Shown here piece by piece: positions 26,743 through 46,536 of a stretch of 55,330 nucleotides of DNA (position 1 is its first letter; each line of letters begins with the position of its first letter). The notes below the pieces were generated by a model. The model saw only the letters and a program-made list of their open reading frames with translations, was not told where the DNA came from and made no database searches. The translations under genes and the position numbers were made by a program. The stretch comes from Dehalococcoidales bacterium (GTDB taxonomy: Bacteria > Chloroflexota > Dehalococcoidia > Dehalococcoidales > UBA3254). The stretch spans positions 1 to 55,330 of the forward strand of contig JAFGOB010000028.1 of the NCBI GenBank assembly GCA_016926695.1. Reading direction: 5' to 3'.

Positions 26743-27291
26743 TTATGAGTCCAGCTTGCCGACCTCTATAGTACCTGTTCCTTTACAGTACAGGCATTTC
26801 TCTTTTAATATGGGATGGTCATCGCAATACGGGCAGGATATTCTCAACTTGCTCTTGTCCTGAATATCCAGGTCCTTGACCTTCCATGACAGCTCTTTTT
26901 CCGAATGTACCTGTGTCCCGCCTACACTGGTCACCAGCTTGCAGTTTATCTTGCGGCAGGTTTCTGCTTCAGGAATATTCTCAGGCCCGGTGCGGTTGCC
27001 GCCTTTGGCAAAAATATCCGGCTTTACCATTTCCAGCGTCTTGCGCACAGTCTGGTCTTCATCAATTGAAGCAACAACTTCAGCAACTCCCTTGACGTTT
27101 TCCAGTATCTCTTTCCTTTCCTCAAAAGGAATGAATACAAACCCCTTTTTTCTCAGGAGAAAATCATCGCTGTTTAATATCACTACCAGTTTGTCACCCA
27201 GCTTTGCGGCCTCGCTGATATATCTGACATGACCGACGTGGATGGGATCGAAAGCCCCGCTTACCGCTACAGTTACATGTTGCTGTTTCAT
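26743..27291 (-). CDS. Cytidylyltransferase-family protein with C-terminal zinc ribbon
   Basis: 182 residues. The nucleotidyltransferase core has GAFDPIHVGHVRY with the HxGH motif (His18, His21), which binds the nucleotide triphosphate. A short C-terminal module has two CxxC pairs (SCPYCDD, then KCLYCKGTG) resembling a DnaJ-type zinc ribbon. The usual ISSTxI signature is not evident; GGTQVHSEKEL occupies that region. The ATG at 27291 has AGGAG 8 bases upstream, and a promoter at 27334-27361 lies between it and an upstream in-frame extension, which supports the shorter start. Substrate unknown (glycerol phosphate, pantetheine phosphate or another alcohol phosphate). Confidence 0.8.
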   Translation of the reverse strand: MKQQHVTVAVSGAFDPIHVGHVRYISEAAKLGDKLVVILNSDDFLLRKKGFVFIPFEERKEILENVKGVAEVVASIDEDQTVRKTLEMVKPDIFAKGGNRTGPENIPEAETCRKINCKLVTSVGGTQVHSEKELSWKVKDLDIQDKSKLRISCPYCDDHPILKEKCLYCKGTGTIEVGKLDS

Positions 27292-27333
27292 CTCAACTGC
27301 TCCTCTGCATACTGGAAATTTGCTACCAGACTT

Positions 27334-27361
27334 ATTGTAGCATAACGGCGTATAATGGCAA
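27334..27361 (-). promoter_or_regulatory. Promoter of the cytidylyltransferase gene
   Basis: Minus strand TTGCCA (27361-27356), 16-bp spacer, TACAAT (27339-27334). Each hexamer matches consensus at 5 of 6. Predicted transcription start about 27327, giving a leader of about 35 bases to the ATG at 27291. Confidence 0.6.
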
Positions 27362-27548
27362 GAGGTCAGGCTGTTACAGACGGCCCTGTTTTCAGCGCCT
27401 CTAATAAAGTTCTCCCAGTGAACTGATGTAGTATTTAGGATGTTCACAACTGCCCTTTTGCAGGCGTAAGTCCAGCCTGCGCTTGTCCTTCAACAGAGAT
27501 TTTCAACCGGCTTGGTTATTGTTATCGTTGTCATCCAGCAGTCCTCCC
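27362..27548. other. Intergenic region between divergent promoters
   Basis: Part of the 516-bp gap between the cytidylyltransferase and imuB-like starts. I see no gene in it. The gap also holds a MITE-like element and the SOS promoter listed separately. Confidence 0.5.
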
Positions 27549-27635
27549 AGTGTAGTGCCTCATAAACAGCTCTATAAGTAGCTTGAAGCTAAAAGCGTTC
27601 TGAACACTGTAGACTTAATTGACTGTCACTACACT
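27549..27635 (+). mobile_element. MITE-like element, copy A (87 bp)
   Basis: Bounded by perfect 9-bp inverted ends, AGTGTAGTG (27549-27557) and CACTACACT (27627-27635). The interior, including CATAAACAGC, AAGCTAAAAG and TAATTGACTG, is shared with copies at 34744-34829 (inverted) and 45593-45677. No open frame is present, so it would need a transposase from elsewhere. It lies just upstream of the SOS promoter of the mutagenesis cassette. Confidence 0.85.
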
Positions 27636-27750
27636 AGCCTTCATTCCGGAATAATTATATCCTGCCTGCATTACAAGCTGGTTAAGATTAAGTTAACTCT
27701 CTGTAAAAACGGCGTAAAATTATCGGCATCATTCGTAAAGACAAAGGCCC

Positions 27751-27807: not shown

Positions 27808-28986
27808 ATGAGGATTATGAGCGTTCTGGTACCCCATTTTCCCCTTAAGTGCGAAGCGTTAAGGAGCCCTTCCGTAGAGGGTGTCCCGTCCGTGGTAACC
27901 TATGCGGAGGGATCGCAAAACCTGGTACTGGACTGCTCCGGCAGTCTGAAGGATATCCAGCCGGGCATGACACTTCAGCAGGCCCTTTCCCTGCACGGGG
28001 AACTCAAGCTGGTCTATGCTGATCTACCCTATTATCGCTCCGTTTTCAGTGAACTGCTGGACGGCCTGGCATCGAAGAGCCCTCTGGTTGAGGAATCGGA
28101 CCTGGGCTGCGCTTACCTGGGACTGGACGGGCTCCAGTCGCTTTATCCGGACGATGAGTCCCTTGTGACCGCCGTCAGAGAAGCTGTTCCGGCCGTCTTC
28201 ACGGCACAGATGGGTATAGCTGAAGGCAAATTCCCGGCTTATCTAGCCGCTTTATACAGTACTCCCGGCGGCTACCGCAGCCTGACAGGCGATCCCGGGC
28301 CTTTCCTCAAGGACCTGGACTGCGATGTACTGCCTATCTCATTTAAAAACAAGAGCAAGCTGCGCGAATTCGGAATACGTACCCTGGGGCAGTTGGCCGC
28401 TTTGCCTCCGGGACCGCTCCGCTCCCAGTTCGGCGCTGAAGGCAATAAGATAGTGAATTTGGCCGGGGGCTGTGATTACACCCCCCTTTTCCCTCGCTGC
28501 ACGGAAGAAACAATCGAAGAAAGTACCACGCTCTCTTCCCTGACGGTCTCACTGGAAGCCATCCTGATTATACTGGAGACACTTCTCTCCCGCTCTTTCA
28601 ACAGGGATAGTCTTAAAGGCAGGGGCATCAGCAGCCTTACCCTCTGGACCAGGAGATGGGGTTCAGGACACTGGGAGCAGGAAATCCATTTCAAAGAGCC
28701 TGCCGCGGATATCAAATACATCCTCTCGCGGATTAAGCCGGTACTGGAAAACTGTCCTCAGCCGGGACCGGTTGAACAGGTGGGAATAAAACTGACCGGG
28801 CTGGGTTACCGCAGCAGCCGGCAGAAAAGCCTTTTTTCGGAAGTCAGGGCCAGAGACCATTTGCTGGAGGATATCAGGCATCTGGAAGATAGACTGGGTA
28901 GCCCCCAGGTTTTCAAGATAAAGGAGGTGGAACCTTGGTCCAGGATCCCGGAAAGGCGCTACGCACTGATTCCCTTAAACCGGTAA
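27808..28986 (+). CDS. imuB: ImuB-like, probably inactive Y-family DNA polymerase protein
   Basis: 392 residues with Y-family polymerase layout: palm/fingers (1-200), helix-hairpin-helix-like thumb (FGIRTLGQLAALPPGPLRSQFG, near 194-215) and little-finger region. The acidic residues of active Y polymerases are missing: the first strand reads SVLVPHFPLK where DxD is expected, and CAYLGLDGL stands where SxDE is expected. This is the hallmark of ImuB, a non-catalytic hub that links DnaE2 to the sliding clamp. It heads the SOS cassette; the next gene overlaps its end by 52 bp. Confidence 0.85.
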   Translation: MRIMSVLVPHFPLKCEALRSPSVEGVPSVVTYAEGSQNLVLDCSGSLKDIQPGMTLQQALSLHGELKLVYADLPYYRSVFSELLDGLASKSPLVEESDLGCAYLGLDGLQSLYPDDESLVTAVREAVPAVFTAQMGIAEGKFPAYLAALYSTPGGYRSLTGDPGPFLKDLDCDVLPISFKNKSKLREFGIRTLGQLAALPPGPLRSQFGAEGNKIVNLAGGCDYTPLFPRCTEETIEESTTLSSLTVSLEAILIILETLLSRSFNRDSLKGRGISSLTLWTRRWGSGHWEQEIHFKEPAADIKYILSRIKPVLENCPQPGPVEQVGIKLTGLGYRSSRQKSLFSEVRARDHLLEDIRHLEDRLGSPQVFKIKEVEPWSRIPERRYALIPLNR

Positions 28987-29222
28987 ATATCCCCGGGCTG
29001 GTAGAGGTGGAGGAAGATTCCCGGGGACTACCGGCGACAGTCAGGCTCAAGCGAAAACAGGCCGTCGCTGCCATTGAGGACAGATGGAGAATCGACGATG
29101 AGTGGTGGCGGGGCGAAGAGGCGATCTCGCGGCTCTATATCGCTGTCATTTTCAGCTCCGGTCAGCGGCTGGTCCTGTATAAAGACCTTATCCGGGACTG
29201 CTGGTACCGCCAGAACTGCTAA
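28935..29222 (+). CDS. Small DUF6504-like protein of the mutagenesis cassette
   Basis: 95 residues. The core RWRIDDEWWR followed by SRLYIAVIF, VLYKDLIRDCWY matches my memory of DUF6504 proteins, which occur beside or fused to Y-family polymerase proteins; treat the name as provisional. The TTG start at 28935 has a near-perfect ribosome site AAGGAGGTG (28921-28929), and it lies inside the end of the imuB-like gene. dnaE2 begins 2 bp after its stop. Tight packing implies a part in the same translesion complex. Confidence 0.75.
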   Translation: MVQDPGKALRTDSLKPVNIPGLVEVEEDSRGLPATVRLKRKQAVAAIEDRWRIDDEWWRGEEAISRLYIAVIFSSGQRLVLYKDLIRDCWYRQNC

Positions 29223-29224
29223 CG

Positions 29225-32200
29225 ATGTCTTACGTTGAATTGCACTGCCATAGCTACTATTCTTTTCATGACGGGGCTTCTTCACTGGAAGAGCTCCTGC
29301 TACAGGCCAGGAAACTCGGCTGCCGTGCCCTGGCCTTGACCGATCATGATAACCTGTGCGGGGCCATGCGCTTTGCACACCTCTCCCGCTCGCTGGAAAT
29401 GCAGGGCATAATAGGCGCCGAGATTACACTCAAAGGGGGCAGTCACCTTACCCTTCTGGCACGGGACCGCCCGGGCTACCGCAATCTGTGCCACCTGATA
29501 ACTGCCGCCCACAACTCAGGGGAGCGTGACAGGCCCGAGTTGCCTCCCGCTCTGCTCGGGGAACATGCGGCGGGGCTGGTTGCCCTTTCCGGCTGTCCCG
29601 GCGGAGAACTGGCGCAACTGGCAGCCGGACAGCGTTTCCCTGAAGCTCGCCGCCTGATCAGGCAATACCTGGAGTGGTTCGGCTGCGAAAACTACTACCT
29701 GGAGTTACAGCAAAACCTGGTAAAAGGAGACACCGGGCGCAACAAAAGACTGTTGGGTCTGGCCCGGGAAACAGGCGCTCAGGTGGCAGCCACAGGCAAT
29801 ACCCACTATCACCTGCGCCAGAGATCCCGGCTACAGGACTGTCTGGTCGCCATCCGTCACTGCAAGAGCCTGGATGAAACACACCGGGAACGCCGCCCCA
29901 ACTCCGAGTTCTATCTCCGGACGCCGGCAGAAATGGAAGCCCTCTTCCATGATTGCCCGGAAGCCCTGGACAATACCCTTAAGATAGCGGAGCGCTGCAC
30001 CCTCGACCTCAGCACCGACCTCAGCTACAGCTTCCCGGACTATCCCTCGCCGCCGGGATATACCCCCGACAGCTACCTGGAAAAGCTTTGCCACGAAGCG
30101 GCCCTGAGACGCTACGGCTCCATCACTCAGGACATCAAAGAAAGACTCGACCACGAGTTCCGCCTGGTCCGTAAATACAACCTGGCCGGCTTCCTGCTGC
30201 TCTATCATGAGGTGATCAAGATCGGAAGAGAGGTAATGATAGACCTGGGACTGAGCGATCCCTCTTTGCCTCTGGAAGAGAATCCCCCGGGCAGGGGACG
30301 CGGCTCTTCGGTCGCTTTATTGATAGGTTATCTGATCGGTCTTTCCCATATAGACCCGCTTAAATACGATCTTTCCCTGGAAAGGTTCCTGACCGAGGAC
30401 GGTATGTCCAACGTTCCCGATATCGATCTTGATTTCCCACGCAGTATCAGGAAGGAGCTTATCCTGAGGACCCACCGAAAATGGGGCTGGCAGAATGCCG
30501 TCCTTACCGGCACCATCGCCACCTATATGGTAAAAGGGGCCGTACGAGACCTGGGTAAAGCCCTGGGACTGCCTGAAGCCGAGGTCGATCAGCTCGCTAA
30601 AGAGGTCGACTGGGGCAGCGCTAAAAGCCTTGAGAAGCAGATGAAGAACTCACCCCGCTTCCGGGACAGGATAAACGATCCCGTCTGGAAAGACCTGATC
30701 AGTCTGGCCTGCGAGCTGGACGGTTTTCCCAAGTACCTGGGACAGCACCCCGGCGGAATGGTCATTTCCTCCACTCCCTTAACCGATATTGTACCTGTTC
30801 AAAGAGGGGCCATTGACGGACGCTATGTCTGCCAGTGGGACAAGGACAGTATAGACGATGCGGGCTTTGTCAAGATCGATTTTCTGGCACTGGGAGCCCT
30901 ATCCCAGATCCAGGAAGCCCTGGAACTGATCAAGCAGCGCACCGGTAAAAGAATCGATCTCTCCCGTATCAATTTCGAGGACAGGAAGGTCTACGATATG
31001 CTCTGCCGTGGAGATACCATCGGCATCTTCCAGATAGAATCGGCAGCCCAGATGCAGACTATCACCAGGCTCCGGCCCGCCAACCTGCTGGATATGGCCC
31101 ATGAGGTGGGAGCGGTCAGGCCCGGCGTGGGTGTTAACGGCGGAGTCCAGGAATACCTGGCACGCCGCAGCGGCAAAAAGCCCCTGGTCTACGACCATCC
31201 CCTGGAAAAGCGGGCCCTGGAACGCACCCTGGGCGTGGTGCTTTTCCAGGACCAGGTAAACCAGTTGGCCATAGATGTCGCCGGGTTCGCTCCCAGCGAG
31301 GCCGACCGCCTGCGCCGCGCCTTCGGCAGAAAACACAACGCCGAACTCATCGAACAGTACCGCCAAAAATTTTTTGAAGGGGCTAAAAGCCGAGGAGTGG
31401 AAGCAGATGCCGCCGGCACCATCTTTAAAAAGTTCAACGGCCTGTATATGTTCCCGGAATCGCATGCCTTTGCTTTCGGAGTAACAGCCTACCAGGCCTC
31501 ATGGCTGAAACTATATTTTTCCCTGGAGTTCTTCACGGGTATTTTCAATCAGCAGCCCATGGGCTTTTACAGCCTGGAAACCTTGAAAGAGGACGCCCGC
31601 AGACACAATATCCGGGTGTTGAACCCGGATATCAACCGCAGCCTTGCCAGGTGCACCATCGAAGACGGCGCTCTGCGGCTGGGTCTGTTGAATGTCCTGG
31701 GACTGGGAGCAAACTCAGCCGGTAAGATCGAAGAGAGCAGGGCAAAATACGGGGCCTTCAGGAACATCGGAGAATTTCTGGAACGCAGCGGAGTGATGGA
31801 AGAAGCAGCCTTTAACCTGGCCGGCGCCGGGGCCTTCGATAGCCTTGAACCCAACCGCAGGAAGGTAAAATGGGAGATCGGTCTCAGATACCGTCCGGTG
31901 AATTCTCAACTGCCTCTGCCTCTGCCGGTGGAGCAGGACCTGGTAGAACTGGAGCCGCCCGGCCGCTGGGAAAGCATGAAAGACGAGTACAGCGTGCTCA
32001 ACCTTTTCCCTGCCGGACATATCATGGCCAGCCTGCGGCCGCGTTTTAACCGCAGCGTTCTTTGCAGCAGGGATATTGCGGGACTGGTTGACGGAGCGGA
32101 AATAACCGTTGCCGGGCTGGTAATTCGCCGCCAGAGGCCGCAAGGCAAGGTGGTCTTTATTACCCTGGAGGACGAATTCGGTCACATTCCGCTGATGGTC

Positions 32201-32362
32201 TTCCCCCATATATACGAACGGCATGAACATAAGTTCAAATCGCCCTTCCTGGTGGTGCAGGGCACACTCTCGAGACGTGAAGGTACGCACAATATCGTTG
32301 TATCCCGGGTACAGCCTTTCAACGCTCTTGATAAGCCTCTTCAATCGAAAGACTGGAGATAA
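29225..32362 (+). CDS. dnaE2: Error-prone DNA polymerase III alpha-type subunit (DnaE2)
   Basis: 1045-residue C-family polymerase. The N-terminal PHP domain has ELHCHSYYSFHDGAS and ALTDHDN. The palm carries PDIDLDF (near residue 399) with the two catalytic Asp, and KIDFLALGAL with the third. A helix-hairpin-helix region and an OB fold (ITVAGLVIRRQRPQGKVVF) follow at the C terminus. Length and cassette context point to DnaE2 rather than the replicative DnaE1. Expected to perform SOS-induced translesion synthesis with the ImuB-like protein. No imuA gene is seen here. GC-rich, CTG-rich codon use spans the whole cassette. Confidence 0.92.
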   Translation: MSYVELHCHSYYSFHDGASSLEELLLQARKLGCRALALTDHDNLCGAMRFAHLSRSLEMQGIIGAEITLKGGSHLTLLARDRPGYRNLCHLITAAHNSGERDRPELPPALLGEHAAGLVALSGCPGGELAQLAAGQRFPEARRLIRQYLEWFGCENYYLELQQNLVKGDTGRNKRLLGLARETGAQVAATGNTHYHLRQRSRLQDCLVAIRHCKSLDETHRERRPNSEFYLRTPAEMEALFHDCPEALDNTLKIAERCTLDLSTDLSYSFPDYPSPPGYTPDSYLEKLCHEAALRRYGSITQDIKERLDHEFRLVRKYNLAGFLLLYHEVIKIGREVMIDLGLSDPSLPLEENPPGRGRGSSVALLIGYLIGLSHIDPLKYDLSLERFLTEDGMSNVPDIDLDFPRSIRKELILRTHRKWGWQNAVLTGTIATYMVKGAVRDLGKALGLPEAEVDQLAKEVDWGSAKSLEKQMKNSPRFRDRINDPVWKDLISLACELDGFPKYLGQHPGGMVISSTPLTDIVPVQRGAIDGRYVCQWDKDSIDDAGFVKIDFLALGALSQIQEALELIKQRTGKRIDLSRINFEDRKVYDMLCRGDTIGIFQIESAAQMQTITRLRPANLLDMAHEVGAVRPGVGVNGGVQEYLARRSGKKPLVYDHPLEKRALERTLGVVLFQDQVNQLAIDVAGFAPSEADRLRRAFGRKHNAELIEQYRQKFFEGAKSRGVEADAAGTIFKKFNGLYMFPESHAFAFGVTAYQASWLKLYFSLEFFTGIFNQQPMGFYSLETLKEDARRHNIRVLNPDINRSLARCTIEDGALRLGLLNVLGLGANSAGKIEESRAKYGAFRNIGEFLERSGVMEEAAFNLAGAGAFDSLEPNRRKVKWEIGLRYRPVNSQLPLPLPVEQDLVELEPPGRWESMKDEYSVLNLFPAGHIMASLRPRFNRSVLCSRDIAGLVDGAEITVAGLVIRRQRPQGKVVFITLEDEFGHIPLMVFPHIYERHEHKFKSPFLVVQGTLSRREGTHNIVVSRVQPFNALDKPLQSKDWR

Positions 32363-32419
32363 ATTGATTGCCGCCCGCGTCACCTGCCGGCATTTTTATT
32401 ATTGGCGCTTATCTGCGAT

Positions 32420-33859
32420 CTAATACAGGTAATCCCTCAATTTAGCCTTGTTCTGCGGGTCGCGCAGGATTTTCAGTGCTTTCAACTCTATTTGCCGTAC
32501 CCGTTCGCGGGTTATGCCCATCTCCTGGCTTACTTCTTCTAGTGTCCGGCCTGCTCCGTTATCCAGTCCGAATCTGAGTTCTATAACCTGTTTTTCCCTT
32601 TCCGGCAGGGTATTTATCAACCCTCTGATCTGCTCTCTGAGGAAAGACTGTGTGGCCTCATCCTCAGGTCTTAATATGGACTGGTCTTCGATACAATCGC
32701 TCAACTGGTCATCATCTTCCCCGATAGGAGTTTCCAGCGATACCGGCTCCAGAGATATGGCTTCCAGTAAAGCGTTGACGGCAGGCGTCGTTATTCCCAT
32801 GGACTGGGATAGCTCGTCATTGGTCGGTTTTCTGCCATACTCCTGAAAAAGTTTTTGCCTGGCAGCGGACAGCCTTTTACTGGTATTGACCATATGTACC
32901 GGTAGCCTGATTGTACGGGAACTGTCAGCTATAGCCCGGCTGATTGATTGCCTGATCCACCAGGTGGCATAGGTACTAAATTTAAAGTTCTTCCTGTGGT
33001 CGAACTTCCTCATGGTGCGGATGAGGCCCAGGTTTCCCTCCTGGATCAAATCGGAGAGTGACAGACCCCTCCCGACAAATTTTTTCGCTATGCTGACTAC
33101 AAGGCGCAAGTTCGCCACGATCAGATGGTTGCCGGCTTCAGACGCCCGCTTCCTTATTCTCTGGAAATGCGCGGCGATTTCAGTTTCTTTTTTCTCCAGC
33201 CCTTCTTTGAATTCCTGGCTTCTTACAACATACGTTAAATCTGAAATGGAATGTGTCTGCCCGGCCGGCTTTACTAGAGACCAGTCGATCAGCAAATTGC
33301 TTAAAGAAAGCTGTACCAGGGCCTCTTCTGCTTTTGCCTGGGCCAGGCCGGTTTTACCTGTCACAAAATCAAGTAGTTGTGGATCAAGATACCCATCGAT
33401 AGCCAGGTGTAGTCTGGGATCTTCCGCTTTTTGTGCGATAGTATACTCTTCATTTATTCGGCAATACCGGCTAACTGCTTCAAAGACTCGGCTGGATTTG
33501 ACAAAGCCTTCGATTGCTTCAGACATTATTTCACTTTGCGTAATACCATTTTTATTTTTCGCTGTCAGGTTTTCTTCTACTTGATTTAAGTAATTACCCT
33601 GCTCAATCTGGCTACCCAGCCTTTTTTCTTCCTCTGCATTAAGTTTAGGTGTCTGGCCCATCTCGGACAGGTAAAGATAGACCAGGTTATCCATATCAGC
33701 TACACCCGTAGGAACGCTTCGGGATTCTCCACCTTGCCAGGTTTCTTCCATTTCAGACTCTACATGGTTTGGATTAAGGGGTAAAAGTACTTTATCTCCG
33801 GAGGCATCTTTTTTACTGGTTTGAAATACGCTTTTCTTGATTCTGGTTTTTGTAGTCAT
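32420..33859 (-). CDS. RNA polymerase sigma factor, sigma-70 group 1/2
   Basis: 479 residues. Region 1.2 ([22 protein letters not shown]), a non-conserved insert of about 150 residues, region 2 ([30 protein letters not shown]), region 3, and region 4 with [15 protein letters not shown] and [18 protein letters not shown]. The residues match promoter-recognising primary sigma factors, so SigA/RpoD is likely, although a group 2 paralogue cannot be excluded without the rest of the genome. The ATG at 33859 has GGAGG 5 bases upstream. Convergent with dnaE2 across 57 bp. Confidence 0.92.
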
Positions 33860-34048
33860 ATTAACCTCCAAATTGCGTATTCGGACTTGGACCCGTTATA
33901 ACTAAGATACAGGCATCCCGGCTATTGTTGTATCCGTATAGGTACTCAGTAAAACGCTGAAAGTACCGTAATACGGCGCGAAAAATCCCGTAGAAAGAAA
34001 TGCACTGGGCTTAATACATGTTAAGAGTCCAGGAAGAAAGTAGTTATG

Positions 34049-34495
34049 TTAATAGGGTAAAGCTGATGCGTTGATGAAAGTGGACCGGCTGTAATCCGGG
34101 CAGGACTTTAAAGAAGGGCTGATATAGCGTTGCCCCGCTATAACAGCCCGGATTGCTTCGATCAATTCTTCGCAAGGGGATTCTTTAAGAATGTAAGCCA
34201 TAGCTCCCGAGGTCAAGGCAGATACTAAATAGGCTTCATGGTTTTGCAGGGTTAGAATTATTGCACGTGTTTCCGAATTCCTTTCACGAAGCTGGCGGAT
34301 GACCTCCAATCCATTAATCCCGGGCATCACCATGTCCAACACCAAAACGTCAGGTTTTAGATCAGTCACCAGATTTACTGTCTCCAGCCCATCCCCTGCT
34401 TCCCCGATAATATCGAAATCTGACTCGGTATTCAGAAAGGCTTTCAGTCCTTTCCTTACTACCACATGGTCATCCGCCAGCACAATTTTAATCAT
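34049..34495 (-). pseudogene. Truncated NarL-type response regulator (receiver only)
   Basis: 148 residues. The receiver domain is intact, with Asp8-Asp9, phospho-acceptor Asp54 (LVLDMVMPG) and Lys in LKES. It is clearly a paralogue of the regulator at 34905-35555, but the LuxR-type helix-turn-helix is gone and is replaced after about residue 127 by an unrelated 21-residue tail. No HTH remnant was seen in the following 180 bp in any frame. It may be a decayed duplicate or a stand-alone receiver that draws phosphate from the kinase. A nested inverted repeat (34093-34154) sits at the truncation point. Confidence 0.7.
34093..34154. repeat. Nested inverted repeat at the receiver truncation point
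   Basis: The outer arms AATCCGGGC (34093-34101) and GCCCGGATT (34146-34154) are perfect over 9 bp. Inside, TATAGCG (34123-34129) and CGCTATA (34136-34142) form a second 7-bp stem. The structure lies in the codons of the aberrant tail of the truncated regulator. Confidence 0.7.
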
Positions 34496-34743
34496 TACCC
34501 TAACCGATATTCGGATTATCCCCTTTATCTTGTTCTTTTAGTTTTTAAGATTTTTATTTTTCCATCACTGATTAAATTATACGGCGGGTATTCTCTTGTT
34601 TGTTATCCGTAAAGACACGTAAAAAAGCCTGTAAATGCTCGTATACAGTCACGTTTCCCATACGGATTGTTTCGGTTTCAATACCGGAGGAGTATCTGTT
34701 ACGTAATCAATTTTAACACTGATCCGTTTCTAAAGGCATATCG
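34496..34743. other. Intergenic region between tandem response regulators
   Basis: No gene is seen. It would hold any promoter of the truncated receiver gene (minus strand). A MITE-like element and a small palindrome fill the rest of the gap up to 34904. Confidence 0.5.
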
Positions 34744-34829
34744 AGTGTAGTGCCAGTCAATTAGGTTTACAGCTTTCAGCGCGCTTTTAGCTTCTATCTA
34801 CTTTAATGCTGTTTATGAGACGCTACACT
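34744..34829 (-). mobile_element. MITE-like element, copy B (86 bp, inverted)
   Basis: On the plus strand it begins AGTGTAGTGCC and ends GACGCTACACT, an 11-bp inverted repeat with 2 mismatches. Its reverse complement aligns along its length with copies A and C (CTCATAAACAGC, AGAAGCTAAAAGCG, AATTGACTGGCAC). It lies between the full-length and the truncated response regulator genes. Confidence 0.85.
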
Positions 34830-34833
34830 AGCG

Positions 34834-34869
34834 TCTTCCCTTCCTAAAGGAATACGGGAGAAGGATTTT
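34834..34869. repeat. Second copy of the palindrome found after dxs
   Basis: CTTCCCTTCCTAAAGGAA followed by TACGGGAGAAGGATTTTA matches 2425-2462 closely. It abuts MITE copy B. Confidence 0.6.
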
Positions 34870-34904: not shown

Positions 34905-35555
34905 TCAGGTCTTTCCGGGGATGATGCCGTGCTGAATGGCAAACTGGATTAACTGTGCATGATTGGCCAAATTCAGCTTCCTCATCAGATGGGTCCGGTG
35001 TGTTTCAACCGTCCTGGGGCTGATAAACAAACGTGCTGCAATATCGTTATTGGTGCTGCCCTGGGCAGCCAGTTGCAGTATTTCCAGTTCCCGTGTGGTC
35101 AACTGATCGAAGGGGTCCATGGGTTTCGTTTCAGTCTTCTGAGTATAGGCTTCTATAGCTCTTTCACTCAGCGGCGCGCTCAGGTAGCGGTGCCCTGAAG
35201 AAACTTCTCTTATCGCCCTCACCAGTTCCTCCGGCGGCGATTCTTTCAAAATATACGCCCTGGCCCCGGAACGTAATGCCTCCAGGACATAGGCTTCATT
35301 GCTGTGCATGGACAATACAACAATACCGGTCCCCGGGCTTTTCTTATTCAACTGCCGGGTCACTTCCAGACCGTTAATCCCCGGCATCATCAGATCCAGC
35401 ACAAGGATATCAGGTTTGAGTTCTTCAACCAGTTTAACTGTATCAAGTCCGTCCCCGGCTTCTCCGATAATCTCAAATTCCGGTTCGGCATTCAGCAGTG
35501 CTTTCAGGCCTTTTCTTACCACCTGGTGGTCATCGGATAAAACTATCTTAATCAT
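34905..35555 (-). CDS. NarL/LuxR-family response regulator
   Basis: 216 residues. The receiver (1-120) has phospho-acceptor Asp54 (LVLDLMMPG). The C-terminal LuxR-type helix-turn-helix (about 148-210) reads LTTRELEILQLAAQG, then PRTVETHRTHLMRKL. It starts 29 bp after the stop of the large histidine kinase gene, which has the matching HisKA_3 type, so the two form a pair. Target genes are unknown. Confidence 0.94.
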   Translation of the reverse strand: MIKIVLSDDHQVVRKGLKALLNAEPEFEIIGEAGDGLDTVKLVEELKPDILVLDLMMPGINGLEVTRQLNKKSPGTGIVVLSMHSNEAYVLEALRSGARAYILKESPPEELVRAIREVSSGHRYLSAPLSERAIEAYTQKTETKPMDPFDQLTTRELEILQLAAQGSTNNDIAARLFISPRTVETHRTHLMRKLNLANHAQLIQFAIQHGIIPGKT

Positions 35556-45056: not shown

Positions 45057-45581
45057 TTGAAGGCGCTTTTACAAAGAGTATCCAGGGCTTCCGTGACAGT
45101 TGAGGGTCAGGTCATGGGCAGCATTGGCGCCGGGCTGGTTGTGCTGGTAGGAGTGGCGGAAGGAGATACTGGCAAAGATGTGCATTACCTGGCTAAAAAA
45201 ACACTCGGACTGCGTATTTTTTCCGATTCTGATGGTAAATTCAATTTATCAGTATCGGATATCGGGGGTGGACTGTTGCTGATCAGCCAGTTTACTCTCT
45301 TGGCAGATGCCCGCAAAGGCCGCCGCCCGAGTTTTACCGGCGCAGCGCCTCCGGATATTGCCGAAGACCTCTTTAACCAGTTCGTCAGTGAAGTCCGCCG
45401 GAGCGGTCTCAAGGTGGAAACTGGAAGATTTCAGGCCCATATGCTGGTTGAAATACATAATGATGGACCTGTGACCCTGATGCTTGACAGCAGAGACAAA
45501 CCCTCCGGCTTTGCTGGCACTCCTGCATCTTCCGGCATTTCATCAGGGGATAGCCGTGCAGCCCGATCTCCGGACTTATAA
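45057..45581 (+). CDS. dtd: D-aminoacyl-tRNA deacylase
   Basis: Hydrolyses D-amino acids (and glycine on tRNA-Ala) from tRNA, a proofreading step. RVSRASVTVEG, the catalytic SQFTL (LISQFTLLADARKG) and NDGPVT near the C terminus are all present. The start is TTG at 45057, fixed by homology (MKALLQRV); the GAGG lies only 2 bases away. The product is 174 residues, about 25 longer than usual because of a Ser/Gly-rich tail after LMLDSR. MITE copy C begins 12 bp after the stop. Confidence 0.94.
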   Translation: MKALLQRVSRASVTVEGQVMGSIGAGLVVLVGVAEGDTGKDVHYLAKKTLGLRIFSDSDGKFNLSVSDIGGGLLLISQFTLLADARKGRRPSFTGAAPPDIAEDLFNQFVSEVRRSGLKVETGRFQAHMLVEIHNDGPVTLMLDSRDKPSGFAGTPASSGISSGDSRAARSPDL

Positions 45582-45592
45582 TCTTTATGTCG

Positions 45593-45677
45593 AGTGTAGT
45601 GCCTCATCAACAGCTTTAAGTAGCTTAAAGCTAAAAGTATGTTGAACACTGTAGACTTAATTGACAGGCACTTCGCT
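45593..45677 (+). mobile_element. MITE-like element, copy C (85 bp)
   Basis: Begins AGTGTAGTGCC (45593-45603) and ends GGCACTTCGCT (45667-45677); the 11-bp arms match at 9 positions. Interior shared with copy A almost base for base from CTCAT to AATTGAC. It fills the whole space between dtd and nadC, which converge, and its last two bases form part of the nadC stop codon. Confidence 0.85.
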
Positions 45678-46536
45678 AGTATTCCAGCTCAAGGCTGATA
45701 TCGAGCGAATTGTATGAATGAGTTAGCGCCCCTACTGAAATGAAATCCACTCCCGTTTCAGCCACGGAACGCACTGTATCCAGGTTAATGCCTCCGGATG
45801 CTTCTATCTCCGTCCTTCCCGCAATTAAACCGACCGCCTTCTTCATTTCAACTACCGTCATGTTGTCCAGCATAATGATATCCGCCCCTGCTTCAGCCGC
45901 TTCCACCGCCTCCTCTACCGTCTTGGCTTCTGCCTCCACTTTAAGTCCCTGCGGCGCTCCTGCCTTTGCCATAGCAATTATCTCCCGGATACTTCTGCCC
46001 GTAACACGCAGTGCGGCAATGTGATTGTCCTTTATCAGTATTGCATCACTCAAGTCCATTCTATGGTTTCTTCCGCCCCCGGCGCTGACTGCGTATTTCT
46101 CCAGCAGTCTGAGAGTCGGAGTGGTCTTGCGGGTATCCGCAATATCCACCTTCAAACCTCGCACTTTTTCGACATAAAGGGAGGTAGTTGTGGCAATTCC
46201 GCTTAAACGCTGCAGGAAATTTAAAGCGACTCTCTCAGCCTTCAGAATGGCTCGAACGTTCCCCTTGATGAACATGACCGTATCACCGTTCCTGACTGTT
46301 GCTCCATCCTCTATCCTGGAATCTACCAACAGCGACCGGTCAGATTTCCTGAATACTTGTTTCGCCACCGGAATCCCCGCCAGTATTCCCGGGGTTTTAA
46401 CCAGTATATTGGCCCTCCCTGTCAGCTCCGGAGGAATTAGTATTTCACTGGTTACATCTCCGTTCGGGACGTCTTCTGCCAGCGCCTGTTCCACCAGCCG
46501 GTCGACATATTCCAATGGTAGGCTTATTATTTTCAT
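45676..46536 (-). CDS. nadC: Nicotinate-nucleotide pyrophosphorylase (carboxylating)
   Basis: Converts quinolinate and PRPP to NaMN, CO2 and pyrophosphate in de novo NAD synthesis. The 286 residues have the family motifs EDVPNGDVTSEI, ADTRKTTPTLRLLEKYAV, GGGRNHRMDLSDAILIKDNHI and EASGGINLDTV. The ATG follows GAGGGGG. It lies 87 bp after nadB. Its TAG stop is formed by the end of MITE copy C, so the last residues could have been altered by that insertion. Confidence 0.97.
   Translation of the reverse strand: MKIISLPLEYVDRLVEQALAEDVPNGDVTSEILIPPELTGRANILVKTPGILAGIPVAKQVFRKSDRSLLVDSRIEDGATVRNGDTVMFIKGNVRAILKAERVALNFLQRLSGIATTTSLYVEKVRGLKVDIADTRKTTPTLRLLEKYAVSAGGGRNHRMDLSDAILIKDNHIAALRVTGRSIREIIAMAKAGAPQGLKVEAEAKTVEEAVEAAEAGADIIMLDNMTVVEMKKAVGLIAGRTEIEASGGINLDTVRSVAETGVDFISVGALTHSYNSLDISLELEY

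Follow-up and report, generated by a model that had tools for sequence, protein, structure and literature searches.

Three segments of 85 to 87 bp in the window, by which we mean the whole stretch of 55,330 nucleotides analysed here (GC content 48%), are most probably decayed copies of one MITE family, that is, internally deleted IS630-type insertion sequences mobilised in trans into the target CTAG; we put the probability of this reading at about 0.9. The original prediction, made from the letters of the window, was of a non-autonomous element moved by a transposase encoded elsewhere, and it is supported by ends of the IS630 type, by the existence of short derivatives, by a patchy distribution, by the gene contexts of the copies and by the lack of a conserved RNA fold.

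Results

Three copies of one short element

The copies, with their flanking dinucleotides, are the following:

27548..27636, plus strand: MITE copy 1 (left CA; right TA, then G)
34743..34830, minus strand: MITE copy 2, inverted (element-left TA intact, preceded by C; element-right TC, not TA)
45592..45678, plus strand: MITE copy 3 (left GA; right TA, then G)

The segments, their lengths (87, 86 and 85 bp for copies 1, 2 and 3, respectively), the inversion of copy 2 and the alignment over the full length are all as first described. Identity over the full length is 84% between copies 1 and 2, 85% between copies 1 and 3, and 78% between copies 2 and 3, with BLAST E values inside the window of 1.1e-21, 2.7e-23, and 4.5e-14, and 95%, 87%, and 90% of the positions of copies 1, 2, and 3 match the consensus. 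None of the six 199-bp flanks of the copies matches another by BLAST within the window. The flank to the right of copy 2 contains a 36-bp repeat (34834-34869, immediately next to the copy) that is found again after dxs, at 2427-2462, with 86% identity; the GGA.TTTT end of this repeat is reminiscent of the AAGGGGGATTT-type repeat inside a family element in L155. With at most one mismatch, a 12-base core gave three matches where 0.47 were expected, a number reached by 2 of 100 shuffles. Terminal inverted repeats of 11 bp had been proposed, and the ends are indeed inverted, but imperfectly so: AGTGTAGTGCC is exact at only one end per copy, and the partner ends, read inward, are AGTGTAGTGAC in copy 1, AGTGTAGCGTC in copy 2, and AGCGAAGTGCC in copy 3. 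The features that define a MITE are therefore present, namely a length of 85-87 bp, imperfect inverted ends, and the lack of a transposase gene, together with three copies in 55 kb that stand in both orientations and in unrelated contexts, with mutually unmatched flanks.

The genes beside the copies are listed here:

26743-27447, minus strand: cytidylyltransferase-like gene, left of copy 1
27808-28986, plus strand: ImuB/Y-family polymerase-like gene, right of copy 1
34049-34495 and 34905-35555, both minus strand: response-regulator genes flanking copy 2
45057-45581, plus strand: dtd, beside copy 3
45676-46536, minus strand: nadC, beside copy 3

Copy 1 is thus found between divergent genes, copy 2 between tandem ones, and copy 3 between the convergent dtd and nadC, so that all three are intergenic and the different contexts and orientations described at the outset are confirmed by the neighbours. 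The response regulator encoded at 34049-34495 has a receiver domain but lacks a LuxR-type output domain, which is present in its neighbour across copy 2 (34905-35555). Genes for an ImuB-like polymerase, an error-prone DnaE, and a sigma-70 factor are adjacent at 27808-33871, a group that we take to be a mutagenesis-cassette arrangement; the ImuB-like and DnaE genes stand together in 68 of 80 related loci. The closest relatives of the error-prone DnaE come from Dehalococcoidales and Dehalococcoidia MAGs, with up to 77% identity (CSMAG_961; among the best 80 of 121 matches), while nadC is at best 67%, 66%, and 64% identical to its counterparts in G138, G077, and G137 (of 156 genomes of the order, 110 gave a match). 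By these values, the host is a Dehalococcoidia bacterium with no close relative among the genomes compared.

Ends shared with IS630-type insertion sequences

The end pattern TAGTGTAGTGYCTCANNAACAG was searched with up to two mismatches in 393 Dehalococcoidia genomes, with the reversed pattern as control, and gave 59 matches in 15 of them (24 in G350; 14 in G167; three each in G185, G197, G108, and G490; one each in nine others) against one for the control. Some of the 59 are probably chance matches; that in G075 lies inside a frame read as CTP synthase, and that in G340 had no second end within reach. Thirty loci from this search contained ten closed short elements of 78-146 bp. Complete insertion sequences with such ends are present in G281 (L146; 1140 bp) and G173 (L172; 1126 bp), each with a single transposase frame, of 373 and 372 codons, respectively. 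The G281 transposase reaches 267 bits with NF033545 transpos_IS630 (cut-off 100) and also matches Pfam DDE_3, and the G173 transposase is 57% identical to it; the second end of the G281 element is imperfect, with four mismatches to GAGACACTACACTA. The full insertion sequence with the same ends that the original prediction proposed to look for is hence represented by IS630 elements of two other genomes, which resemble the window copies in the left end and in the inverted repeat as a whole, but not in the right end. When the transposase was sought in 18 genomes (14 of the 15 with the end pattern plus G070, G126, G129, and G091), eight matched at E ≤ 1e-20, as did three of the 156 genomes of the order. 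Short elements without a transposase match at E ≤ 1e-20 were found in G070, G108, G126, G185, and G204, as expected for non-autonomous elements, with the reservation that MAGs may be incomplete.

In the complete elements the transposase gene reaches the very end, so that its last codons are the inverted repeat itself, and its stop codon is composed of the TA of the target duplication and the next G of the target. One end of each window copy reads in the same way:

27550..27575, minus strand: end of copy 1, counterpart of the 3' terminus of a transposase gene of IS630 type, RAVYEALH
34803..34828, plus strand: end of copy 2, counterpart of the 3' terminus of a transposase gene of IS630 type, NAVYETLH, followed by TAG
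45594..45619, minus strand: end of copy 3, counterpart of the 3' terminus of a transposase gene of IS630 type, KAVDEALH

An end peptide such as CKAVxETLH was read in 15 elements outside the window, with the stop codon next in 14 of the 15; AKEALEALH in L172 and CKAECETLD in L082 deviate. Because the TAGTGTAGTGYCTCANNAACAG pattern fixes most of these codons, the KAVxETLH reading is independent mainly in the two complete elements. A contig of G197 (L143) ends in 45 transposase codons, the last of which read HCKAVYETLH-stop, and two ends in the same genome match the model of the window copies (described below) over 31 positions (E 9e-4). At positions 12-29, the left ends of the window copies share with the transposase-3' ends of 10 of the 15 family elements a mean of 12.2-12.4 of 18 positions, a value reached by none of 2000 shuffles; against the opposite family ends the same positions give 8.6-9.1 of 18, above most shuffles (P 0.004-0.008). 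The right ends take no clear side, with means of 8.7, 9.3, and 9.1 against the upstream ends and 7.8, 9.7, and 8.8 against the transposase ends. The statement that none of the copies encodes a protein holds insofar as the window contains no transposase of this IS630 clade (best tblastn E 0.56), with the correction that one end reads as the last codons of such a gene. The family illustrates how codons from the end of a transposase gene, retained at the termini of short repeats, allow such repeats in genomes of this kind to be assigned to a transposase family.

Target site

In the relatives, the element proper starts with GTGTAG after the duplicated TA of a CTAG target. The suspicion that the true end is CTAG was right in this sense, as the relatives sit in C|TA...TA|G. 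A C precedes the left TA in 13 and a G follows the right TA in all of the 15 elements compared outside the window, and CTA was found at 23 of the 30 end-pattern loci. The elements of G070 are preceded by CTA in 14 of 19 cases (TTA in four and CTG in one), and 7 of the 11 right ends are followed by G. From these counts, CTAG is the preferred target of the family, with TA duplicated on insertion. All three window copies still have the outer C and G, and each retains one intact TA; the other, read inward, is CA in copy 1 and GA in copies 2 and 3, that is, T was replaced by C in the former and by G in the latter two. Where no clear target duplication had been seen, there is accordingly a 2-bp duplication of TA, the hallmark of IS630 and Tc1-mariner elements, complete in the relatives and half preserved in the window. 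The damaged TA (27548, 34743, and 45592) is always the left one on the plus strand, despite the inversion of copy 2, an observation on three copies from which we draw nothing.

Relatives of the 86-bp form

A sequence-only model built from the three window copies was searched in the 156 genomes of the order, where 32 gave matches at E ≤ 1, mostly partial; most of these partial matches were taken for chance, and those read were G126, 19 places in G070, G137, G077, and, at a glance, G129. Two genomes stood out. G070 has 22 matches, to about the first 27-28 positions of the model, and its element starts with AGTGTAGTGTCTCAATAACAGCTTTAC or variants of it; a right end could be located in 11 of the 19 copies read; it is near GAGACACTACACT and puts their length at 208-280 bp, by which the short derivatives in other Dehalococcoidia genomes come to span 78-280 bp. 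G126 has a relative of full length (E 1.1e-4 for one genome, or about 0.02 when multiplied by 156), and no second copy was found in that genome. Among all 393 genomes, five reached E ≤ 0.01, and the partial matches included G375, G206, and G157. A further full-length relative is present in G202, a genome of 6.5 Mb (E 1.8e-8 for one genome), together with three weak matches (E 0.18-0.83), one of them full-length.

Aligned with the three copies, the relatives in G202 and G126 leave 39 invariant positions in 90 columns, and in the 33 columns of the interior they agree with the window copies at 19-22 and 15-16 places, respectively. G181 contains a decayed relative without intact ends; its identity is 56-58% with the window copies, 61% with the relative in G202, and 64% with that in G126. 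Each window copy aligns with the relatives in G202, G126, and G181 at scores above those of all 300 shuffles. By match count alone, G126 (57-58) stayed below the highest of 200 shuffles (62, mean 47), because shuffled pairs may open more gaps. With the 86-bp form in G202 and G126, and its decayed version in G181, the short form is thus old and patchy in its distribution.

A right-end pattern matched three of the 393 genomes (G202, G051, and G181) against two for the reversed control, and no complete element with the right end of the window copies was found in this search; the match in G051 had no second end. A strict right-half pattern, CTGTARACNTAATTGACNGNCACT, had no match in the genome-contig and viral-contig collections, nor had copy 1 in the plasmid collection. 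BLAST of copy 1 against 20 related genomes returned a single 19-bp match (95% identical, E 0.085), around which the one exact word sought was absent. The genomes nearest by nadC, G138, G077, and G137, gave weak partial model matches only, and those of G137 and G077 were dropped, several being AGCTTAAAGCTAAAAGC-like tracts and none having element ends. Tracts such as AGCTTAAAGCTAAAAGC, which resemble the middle of the element, occur without its ends at five loci of G137 (L098, L217, L218, L219, and L220).

Sites without copy 3

Five relatives with convergent dtd and nadC have short spacers of 21, 60, 53, 53, and 47 nt without the element, measured from the aligned end of dtd (codon 148) to that of nadC (codon 285). 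In the window the same spacer is 181 nt long, 87 nt of which are copy 3 with its dinucleotides. The comparison with empty sites that had been recommended therefore yields five relatives lacking copy 3, which are too distant to display the exact site before insertion. Longer spacers in L191 (183 nt) and L212 (909 nt) contained only one chance-like partial end each; in the remainder of the 30 nadC loci, dtd is further off in four (L187, L202, L210, and L214) and was not found in 19. For copies 1 and 2, no syntenic relative was present in the 80 DnaE loci, none of which has the gene to the left of copy 1.

Discussion

We propose that each copy keeps approximately 30 bp of the end carrying the last transposase codons, that the other 50 bp or so should derive from the opposite, upstream end, to which the right half is assigned provisionally, and that the transposase gene between both ends was lost. 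A full IS630 element would supply the transposase in trans, presumably recognising the imperfect inverted ends (GTGTAGTGYCTC...), and would paste the short element into CTAG, duplicating TA. The parent would probably be an element of this group. The window copies have probably lost their activity, as their 95%, 87%, and 90% agreement with the consensus and the one broken TA in each suggest. Genomes with the family have from 1 to 24 end-pattern matches, besides the 19 copies read in G070.

Had the three segments been paralogous copies of a small structured RNA gene or of a regulatory RNA, pairing of their ends into a stem would be easily understood, and copy 3 does fold better than shuffled sequences (z of -2.4 and -2.5 for the two strands). 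Nevertheless, the z values of the other copies are -1.2, 0.0, -1.6, and +0.5, and while RNAalifold proposes 21 pairs for five relatives, five of which have one or more two-sided changes, its covariation term is only -0.12 kcal/mol for these five sequences. No Rfam family was reached at the gathering score, the copies stand in both orientations and in unrelated contexts, and their ends equal those of IS630 elements. The original prediction had named conservation at one site in distant relatives, with a conserved fold, as the outcome that would speak for an RNA gene; the outcome was not of that kind, since the five dtd-nadC relatives lack copy 3 and covariation is near nil. We consider an RNA gene highly improbable. 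Slightly better placed, but still very unlikely, is the idea that the copies, once mobile as MITEs, are now kept as terminators, promoters, or signals for mRNA processing, e.g., as a terminator between dtd and nadC. It would suit the intergenic position of all three copies and the convergent genes around copy 3, and in several family elements TTGACA, which resembles the -35 box of a promoter, is present at the upstream end; however, the copies differ by 15-22% with no preserved fold, and the same five relatives do without copy 3.

The 3' end of a transposase gene in the left end would also be left behind if three separate full-length insertion sequences had decayed in place and never moved as 86-bp units. 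What argues against such a history is that the copies are of equal length within 2 bp and have the same interior, by which it is nearly excluded, and that G126 and G202 carry the same form; it is the least probable of the explanations considered, with hardly any weight left to it. Since the short form is shared with these two genomes, the deletion came first and the short form spread afterward.

IS870, an IS630-family element of Agrobacterium vitis, uses CTAG as its insertion site and takes from it the stop codon of its large ORF. The family described here appears to behave alike, with a TA duplication in CTAG and a transposase frame stopped by TA and the G of the target; unlike IS870, to which they are likened by description only, the window elements are without the gene. 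IS870 itself is named in a list in one paper (PMC4678618). The closest published analogue that we found is RUP of Streptococcus pneumoniae, a 107-bp, intergenic, gene-less element with TA at the insertion point and ends like those of IS630-Spn1, by which it is proposed to be mobilised (PMC2229807). RUP resembles the window elements in being short, intergenic, and gene-less, with TA at its borders and with termini like those of an IS630 relative, and differs in the phylum of its host and in its 9-bp TIRs, a comparison made by description (PMC2229807). The ends of the window family, in contrast to RUP, carry the last codons of the transposase, and its target is CTAG. In the same source, the Correia/NEMIS elements of Neisseria are likewise short, TA-flanked, and MITE-like, with another host and 24-bp TIRs, and would be similar by description only (PMC2229807). 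MITEPsy1 duplicates CTAG or YTAA and is filed as 'IS5?' in a table of the text consulted (PMC3189936). No description of an IS630-type MITE in Dehalococcoidia was present among the literature matches listed (titles and beginnings of abstracts). Given this and the analogy with RUP, the elements are therefore a new MITE family of a well-known type; they add to the Dehalococcoidia a MITE family together with its likely parental IS group, and are otherwise ordinary mobile DNA.

A last detail concerns the gene next to copy 3:

45676..45678, minus strand: nadC stop codon TAG, formed by the TA of the CTAG target and the G with which copy 3 begins

The nadC frame ends in TAC-TAG, and the CTAG within it is the insertion site of copy 3. 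Because the element starts with G, TA and G spell the stop codon again. A MITE of the IS630 type that starts with G and has CTAG as target would rebuild TAG on both sides and could land in TAG stop codons with the protein unchanged, in which case C|TAG stops might serve as safe harbours across Dehalococcoidia if this were systematic; with copy 3 as the one case, we hold such a rule to be rather unlikely. That the insertion restores the stop codon is an elegant detail that lends itself to testing, and the full length of nadC was kept, its alignment extending to residue 285 of 286 in relatives.
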